Shown here: piece after piece, positions 38,754 to 39,430 of the stretch
Layout of the letters: every line of letters starts with the position of its first letter
How positions within the stretch are numbered: the stretch's first letter is position 1
Assembly (NCBI GenBank): GCA_015490895.1
Contig: WFWY01000159.1
Location: forward strand, 1 to 63,552
Source of the DNA: Thiotrichaceae bacterium
Lineage (GTDB): Bacteria > Pseudomonadota > Gammaproteobacteria > Thiotrichales > Thiotrichaceae
Direction: 5' to 3'
Length of the DNA stretch: 63,552 bases
Translations under genes and position numbers: made by a program
The notes under the pieces: generated by a model
What the model saw: only the letters and a program-made list of their open reading frames with translations
Database searches by the model: none
Told to the model about the DNA's origin: nothing

Positions 38754-38778
38754 AAAAAATCCCCACCCGAAGGCGGGG
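38754..38778 (-). terminator. UUCG-capped terminator, unit 2
   Basis: On the minus strand a 7-bp stem with a G-U pair and the stable cUUCGg loop is followed by A and six T. On the plus strand the stem has an A-C mismatch and no T-run, so direction is clear. Confidence 0.8.
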
Positions 38779-38896
38779 AAAGTACTAAGTCGAGGTACGT
38801 CAGAGGTCATATTTTTATTATTATCTACTTCTGATCGCTGTCCTCTAGGGGCTTGCTGGTAAAACGGGTTTAATCATTCTTTGTATGATTAGGCTT
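38754..38896 (-). ncRNA. Candidate small RNA, second unit
   Basis: Read on the minus strand this unit has an A-rich (ARN)n tract at 38825-38811 (GATAATAATAAAAAT), about 40 bases of variable sequence and a hairpin CCCCGCC-TTCG-GGTGGGG (38778-38761) running into ATTTTTT. The motif order and spacing copy the first unit upstream, including GATCAG before the tract, so the two look like a tandem duplication. An inverted repeat TAATCAT-N7-ATGATTA (38871-38891) lies at its 5' end. It may be a separate RNA or a read-through part of the first. Confidence 0.45.
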
Positions 38897-38924
38897 AAAT
38901 AAATCCCCTACCCGAAGGCAGGGG
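38897..38924 (-). terminator. UUCG-capped terminator, unit 1
   Basis: An 8-bp stem with a UUCG loop on the minus strand, followed by ATTTATTT. The T-run is interrupted, so some read-through into the second unit is possible. Confidence 0.7.
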
Positions 38925-39100
38925 AAGCGTTGTGTAAGAGCCAAGCCTTTTATTGTTATTATGTGCCTGATCTCTCGGTCGGTTTATAACTGTTCCTTCA
39001 GCCCATTTCTTATCATTTTATTATTATTGTTATTTTCTGTCCCTGTTGTTTACCTGGCATCGAATGCGCCACTCTTGTCGGTGTTTGTCATTCGCTGCTG
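38897..39100 (-). ncRNA. Candidate sigma-54-dependent Hfq/Crc-binding small RNA
   Basis: Predicted start near 39100, 12 bases after the -12 element of a near-consensus sigma-54 promoter. Two (ARN)n tracts follow: 39035-39013 (AATAACAATAATAATAAAA) and 38964-38948 (CATAATAACAATAAAAG), the type of sequence held by the Hfq distal face and by Crc. The end is a hairpin CCCCTGCC-TTCG-GGTAGGGG (38924-38905) followed by ATTTATTT. No ORF of note is present. Promoter class, A-rich repeats and absence of coding match the CrcZ family in layout; sequence homology to CrcZ is not claimed. Confidence 0.55.
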
Positions 39101-39110
39101 CCATAGTTAA

Positions 39111-39127
39111 TGCAATGGCTGTGCCAA
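39111..39127 (-). promoter_or_regulatory. Sigma-54 (-24/-12) promoter
   Basis: Minus strand TTGGCACAGCCATTGCA matches TGGCAC-N5-TTGCA exactly, with GG (39125-39124) and GC (39113-39112) ten bases apart. Two imperfect palindromes upstream (TGTCCG/CGGAACA near 39285-39300 and GTGACAC/GAGTGT near 39230-39240) lie at distances usual for enhancer-binding proteins. It points away from purF. Confidence 0.75.
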
Positions 39128-39430
39128 TGTGTAGTGAAAAACAGAATAATATTAAAAATCAATCAAATATGTAAAATACGGAGTGGTTAAAGGAATTCAC
39201 GGACGGTATAGAAATGTCAAATTTTTACACTCTGTGTCACAACAGGGCGACTTTTTGACAAAAGTGGTCAGCTGGCAGATGGACTGTTCCGGATCGGACA
39301 AATGGCTGCAAAGCGGTACTGGGCAGTATGACAAGGAGACGCTTGCAAGGGCAAATAATTCAATGGCTGATTGATGATTTACGAGATATGATATGCACAC
39401 CCCCTTTTCAGGAATGTTTTCAGGTTAGAT

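Follow-up and report, generated by a model that had tools for sequence, protein, structure and literature searches.

The locus lies between iscX and purF on contig WFWY01000159.1 of a Thiotrichaceae bacterium, within a stretch of 63,552 nucleotides that was analysed as a whole and is referred to here as the window. On its minus strand, a sigma-54 promoter is followed by three A-rich tracts and two UUCG-capped stems with T-runs after them, all of which had been described in an earlier note and are present in the DNA (Table 1). The region was also described there as gene-free, and no minus-strand open reading frame of at least 50 amino acids was found inside 38754-39127 or overlapping these features. 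The ends of the predicted RNA were set from the promoter and terminator positions, and the resulting 347-nt sequence has a better fold than any of 100 dinucleotide shuffles (z -3.6). The first terminator carries a weak U-tract (UUUAUUUAA), and an intrinsic terminator with a U-tail, as expected of Hfq-associated small RNAs, is found at the locus. The conserved leader element AGAAATGGGCTGAAGGAACAG comes after the first A-rich tract and before hairpin 1; a related sequence, GAAAGGGTTAAGGAAAG, is present in two Thiothrix copies of the RNA (L008 and L016).

Table 1. Features of the predicted small-RNA locus and its upstream region, in window coordinates
Feature	Positions	Strand	Basis or remark
Activator half-site TGTCA (putative)	39256..39260		Precedes the TGG of the -24 element by 134 bp; position class recurs in 70 distinct family promoters
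Activator half-site TGACA (putative)	39235..39239		At -113; the pilA promoter of the same genome also has TGACA at -113
Activator half-site TGACA (putative)	39215..39219		At -93
Sigma-54 (-24/-12) promoter TTGGCACAGCCATTGCA	39111..39127	minus	Predicted RNA start near 39100
Predicted small RNA	38754..39100	minus	Promoter and terminator positions; readthrough of both units gives about 347 nt
Leader A-rich tract, (AAN)n	39013..39035	minus	Conserved in four congeners
Conserved leader element AGAAATGGGCTGAAGGAACAG	38990..39010	minus	Identical or near-identical in G005 and G004
Hairpin of unit 1, A-rich loop at 38964-38948	38936..38976	minus	Folding and congener alignment
Leaky terminator 1: UUCG-capped stem, weak U-tract	38904..38925	minus	Predicted; weakly conserved in G001 and G002
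Near-invariant unpaired element ACCAGCAAGCCCC	38848..38860	minus	Candidate pairing seed or protein site
Unit 2 module: element and two-part stem, the family-defining part	38791..38860	minus	Covariance model R1, 71.2 bits; covariation
Unit 2 A-rich apical loop	38811..38825	minus	AAN enrichment in family loops
UUCG-capped intrinsic terminator 2, T6 tail	38754..38779	minus	Stem 38779-38760; sequence and folding

The promoter sequence differs by one base from the TTGGCACG-N4-TTGCA consensus. A relaxed -24/-12 motif occurs 32 times in the window's genome versus once for the reversed control and is therefore not chance sequence. Additionally, the element lies upstream of 72 of the 78 transcripts of the RNA family described below, against 0 of 78 for the reversed motif, so that the sigma-54 promoter proposed earlier belongs to a class that recurs across the family. 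When the locus was compared by BLAST with its relatives, matches were found in four of five congeners, all four of which keep the -24/-12 element and three of which retain iscX downstream. Promoter, tracts, hairpins and 3' terminator are all conserved in G005 and G004, while G002 and G001 retain the promoter, the tracts and unit 2, with weaker stems; in the congener alignment, the promoter, tracts and unit-2 module are retained and the spacers have diverged. The earlier note had made its case depend on such conservation of tracts and promoter, and this conservation is supported, as is the small-RNA locus that it proposed. By contrast, the isc neighbourhood, to which the note had attached meaning, is incidental, because in other genera several copies lie at other genomic places. 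The idea that one unit is a duplicate of the other fared only partly better. Unit 2 is indeed a duplicating module, three near-identical tandem copies of it being present in G001, but unit 1 does not have the ACCAGCAAGCCCC element and is not detected by the unit-2 covariance model, so duplication of one from the other is unproven and the model does not support an origin of unit 1 from unit 2.

A covariance search across related genomes, as had been suggested, was performed with model R1, which is based on unit 2 (38860-38791) and was built from 27 diverse modules. Of 63 Thiotrichaceae genomes, 56 were positive, among them 43 of the 46 of good quality and members of each of the 8 genera; the modules total 136, and a single genome has up to six. 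The seven Thiotrichaceae genomes without a match comprise G003, from the window's genus, and six others. In a class-wide gammaproteobacterial sample, R1 matched in 0 of 366 genomes outside Thiotrichaceae, the three positives all being Thiotrichaceae, and Rfam returned no significant family match at either gathering or permissive thresholds. In the module, a two-part stem and an AAN-rich loop of about 23 nt come after the near-invariant ACCAGCAAGCCCC, which is unpaired. Across 106 aligned matches, 92.4% of the cells are paired, 215 cells are changed on both sides and none of 500 shuffles does as well, in an alignment that was fitted to the structure (an unfitted alignment, A1, gives a similar picture), whereas structures slid along the same alignment are paired in 31-50% of cells.

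Although their stems vary, 97 of 105 modules retain the core of the element, CAAGCCC, an invariance that is somewhat overstated because the R1 training sequences were picked partly by the element. However, the first BLAST matches in other genera, chosen independently of it, carry the element too. The short matches in those genera all fall on TTTAYCAGCAAGCCCC and a hairpin after it whose loop is A-rich, and most are preceded by a -24/-12 promoter of their own. In most single-sequence folds, ACCAGCAAGCCCC is unpaired. When 84,980 genomes were scanned for the element, 51 stretches were recovered. On inspection, L038, L050, L052, L057, L063, L064 and L068 have no A-rich hairpin and look like chance occurrences; of the others, a few copies are shortened and have no A-rich loop, and the rest bear the A-rich hairpin. 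Their labels read Thiothrix, Leucothrix, Cocleimonas, Thiotrichaceae or Gammaproteobacteria/Proteobacteria, with the exception of two contigs of a single metagenome-assembled genome labelled Aquificaceae. These two contigs, L021 (QOAQ01000052.1) and L049 (QOAQ01000080.1), bear typical modules and sigma-54 promoters and are probably mis-binned Thiotrichaceae DNA. The shortened copies, in L034, L042, L046 (176), L047 (1400) and L053 (125), retain TTTACCAGCAAGCCCC and a GC-rich stem; in L046, L047 and L053, the shortened copy comes after a full module, in tandem. On this sequence evidence, the locus is a member of a real, previously unlisted, Thiotrichaceae-specific small RNA family, whose promoter class is well supported.

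Upstream of the family promoters, putative TGTCA/TGACA half-sites occupy a zone about 90-135 bp from the -24 element. At least two of them lie between -145 and -70 in 68 of 70 distinct promoters, versus three promoters for the reversed 5-mer, and the mean number per promoter is 3.4, compared with 0.43 for the reversed 5-mer and 0.14 for shuffles. Their positions peak at -95, -105, -114 and -125, a spacing of about one helical turn. Among 30 strict sigma-54 sites examined in the window's genome, only that of the RNA locus has at least two half-sites. When promoter and half-sites were sought as a combined pattern, the window's genome gave exactly two occurrences, one at pilA and the other at the RNA locus, and G005 likewise gave exactly these two, the reversed control giving 0 in each case. 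The pattern also picks out pilA in G011 and G029, and the pilA promoters of the window's genome and its relatives have their half-sites arranged as at the RNA locus. Two tandem pilin genes are found on contig C103 of the window's genome (L115), and the sigma-54 promoter with TGACA sites is on the first only.

The full sigma-54 activators found in the window's genome are only four, namely NtrC, NtrX, an orthologue of PilR and an unassigned response regulator. The gene of the last (G000:C51:7827-8318, L075) adjoins that of a TPR-repeat protein, and its receiver domain fits known models poorly. PilS/PilR is a regulator of pilin and motility genes. No PilR model in NCBIfam names the protein considered here; in G006, G007 and G009, a pilR-like gene lies directly upstream of pilA, with a product 58-59% identical to PilR of the window's genome and 35-41% identical to its NtrC. 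The marks of a PilR regulon were found at the locus, that is, a -24/-12 element with tandem TGTC-type sites common to pilA, in a genome that encodes PilR, and GTCT elements have been described as hallmarks of PilR sites (PMC6058289). Since the pattern occurs only at pilA and the RNA locus, and pilR lies upstream of pilA in relatives, PilR is the best candidate and very probably the activator, rather than a regulator of the CbrB or nitrogen type. Control by another bEBP, either NtrC or the response regulator of contig C51, appears improbable: both are encoded in the genome and bEBP sites can resemble each other, but no third place in the window's genome has the site geometry shared by pilA and the RNA locus, and pilR adjoins pilA in relatives.

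The carbon- or nitrogen-state control that the earlier note had envisaged, by analogy with CrcZ, is not supported by these observations. The sigma-54 promoter and the Hfq-type AAN tracts on which the analogy was built stand, whereas the proposed control finds no support, given that CbrB is absent among the sigma-54 activators found and the upstream sites are shared with pilA. A genuine homologue of CrcZ/CrcY/CrcX under CbrAB is largely refuted and has only a very slight chance of being correct. It would agree with the sigma-54 promoter and the several (ARN)n tracts, with n of at least 4, that characterize CrcZ-type RNAs, and the TGTCA upstream sites resemble the CbrB site TGTTAC (PMC6296734). 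However, the Rfam CrcZ model scores 9.4 bits at the locus against a cut-off of 95 bits; over the window's genome it gave no match, nor did it in the control genomes, which makes that genome-wide negative weak by itself. Membership further fails on the CbrB sites themselves, the upstream sites being not TGTTAC/GTAACA (PMC6296734) but the TGTCA/TGACA common to pilA, and on the lack of a non-catalytic Crc, and CbrAB has been described as exclusive to Pseudomonads (PMC6296734). A crc homologue, for which a search had been proposed, is present, but the Crc homologues keep the exonuclease III motifs GDWNIAH and SDHxP, which are lost in P. aeruginosa Crc. These proteins (G000:C87:7624-8484, L260, and L253-L259) are 40-49% identical to P. 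aeruginosa Crc, with an insert of about 30 residues in those of G000 and G001. The RNA may still work partly like CrcZ.

Association with Hfq is likely, as indicated by loop sequence and gene content. At least four consecutive AAN triplets are found in 71% of 77 distinct loops, compared with 6% of shuffles, which provides ARN/AAN docking sites at the sequence level. The search for hfq recommended earlier was positive, the window's genome encoding an Hfq that keeps the usual distal-face residues Y25, I30 and K31 (E. coli Hfq numbering). As for what the RNA does, the retention of CAAGCCC while the stems change points to sequence-specific recognition, most simply base-pairing, and by analogy with the Vibrio Qrr RNAs there is about an even chance that its output would be pairing with target mRNAs. 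Exact 10-nt complements of the element are more numerous than those of the reversed control in ten genomes. In six of these genomes (G007, G008 and G009 lie outside this set) their contexts were inspected; they fall mostly inside coding sequence and contain no recurrent start-codon target. Nor is pilA a convincing partner, pairing with the seed no better than with shuffled seeds.

The main rival to base-pairing is Hfq titration, in which the AAN loops would act as a CrcZ-like sponge and free A-rich ribosome-binding sites, perhaps including that of pilA, in a feed-forward loop with PilR. This reading is tentative and rather unlikely. It draws on the several AAN tracts per transcript, the tandem amplification in G001 and the presence of up to six modules per genome, as well as on the precedent of CrcZ, in which six ARN repeats titrate Hfq (PMC4063720). 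The three pilA leaders of the window's genus, which could be its target, carry ARN runs of at least 4, compared with 2 of 51 background leaders; however, pilA leaders outside the genus have runs of only 3, many Thiothrix copies of the RNA have a single loop tract, and a near-invariant CAAGCCC is not needed for simple titration. A PilR-controlled RNA that binds a protein other than Hfq through CAAGCCCC and the hairpin is decidedly unlikely, even though a near-invariant element whose position next to the conserved hairpin is constant, and the lack of an mRNA target in the complement contexts inspected, would be compatible with it, since the AAN periodicity of the loops goes beyond base composition and suits the distal face of Hfq.

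The best explanation is that the family RNA would be transcribed by sigma-54 RNA polymerase under the PilS/PilR two-component system, with PilR predicted to bind, as at pilA, the tandem TGTCA/TGACA sites that precede the -24 element by about 90-135 bp. Because the sites at the RNA promoter would be those that PilR uses at pilA, co-induction of the RNA with the major pilin is proposed. One or more exposed AAN-rich loops would bind Hfq at its distal face, and the unpaired, near-invariant ACCAGCAAGCCCC beside them would most likely serve as the seed that pairs with target mRNAs in a Qrr-like manner. PilR control and Hfq association of the family, taken together, are reasonably likely. With somewhat less assurance, slightly on the favourable side of even, these tandem, amplifiable, Hfq-binding RNAs co-induced with pilin may form a family-wide RNA arm of PilS/PilR, through which attachment or gliding would reprogram post-transcriptional control in filamentous sulfur bacteria. 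If this is true, PilS/PilR driving up to six RNA modules per genome would tie pilus sensing to Hfq-level control across the family. No report of a PilR-activated small RNA, and none on regulatory RNAs of Thiothrix or Leucothrix, was found in the literature. The occurrence of the pattern at pilA and the RNA locus alone, in two genomes, leads to directly testable predictions, and cultured hosts of the RNA family include T. lacustris, T. caldifontis and L. arctica.

Among known systems, CrcZ/CrcY/CrcX of Pseudomonas (CrcZ, RF01675) share with the Thiotrichaceae RNA activator sites ahead of a sigma-54 promoter, several ARN tracts and more than one copy per genome. The Thiotrichaceae RNA differs in giving no sequence or covariance match, in its PilR-type sites, in the absence of CbrB and the catalytic look of the Crc homologue, and in its compact module with near-invariant ACCAGCAAGCCCC and covarying stem. 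NsiR1, a cyanobacterial nitrogen-stress RNA, is likewise a short multi-copy hairpin RNA with weak Rfam similarity (20 bits against a cut-off of 39), but it falls below threshold and belongs to another phylum, and the resemblance is probably chance. Qrr1-5 of Vibrio are also multi-copy, depend on sigma-54 and a response regulator, and have a conserved unpaired core and intrinsic terminators; on the other hand, their activator is LuxO rather than PilR, their sequence is unrelated and no quorum-sensing link is seen for the Thiotrichaceae RNA, no activator of the window's genome reaching the cut-off of the LuxO model. The PilR regulon of Pseudomonas and Geobacter (pilA and others) likewise has tandem TGTC-type sites that precede -24/-12 elements by about 90-135 bp, with the difference that in Thiotrichaceae its targets would include non-coding RNAs.
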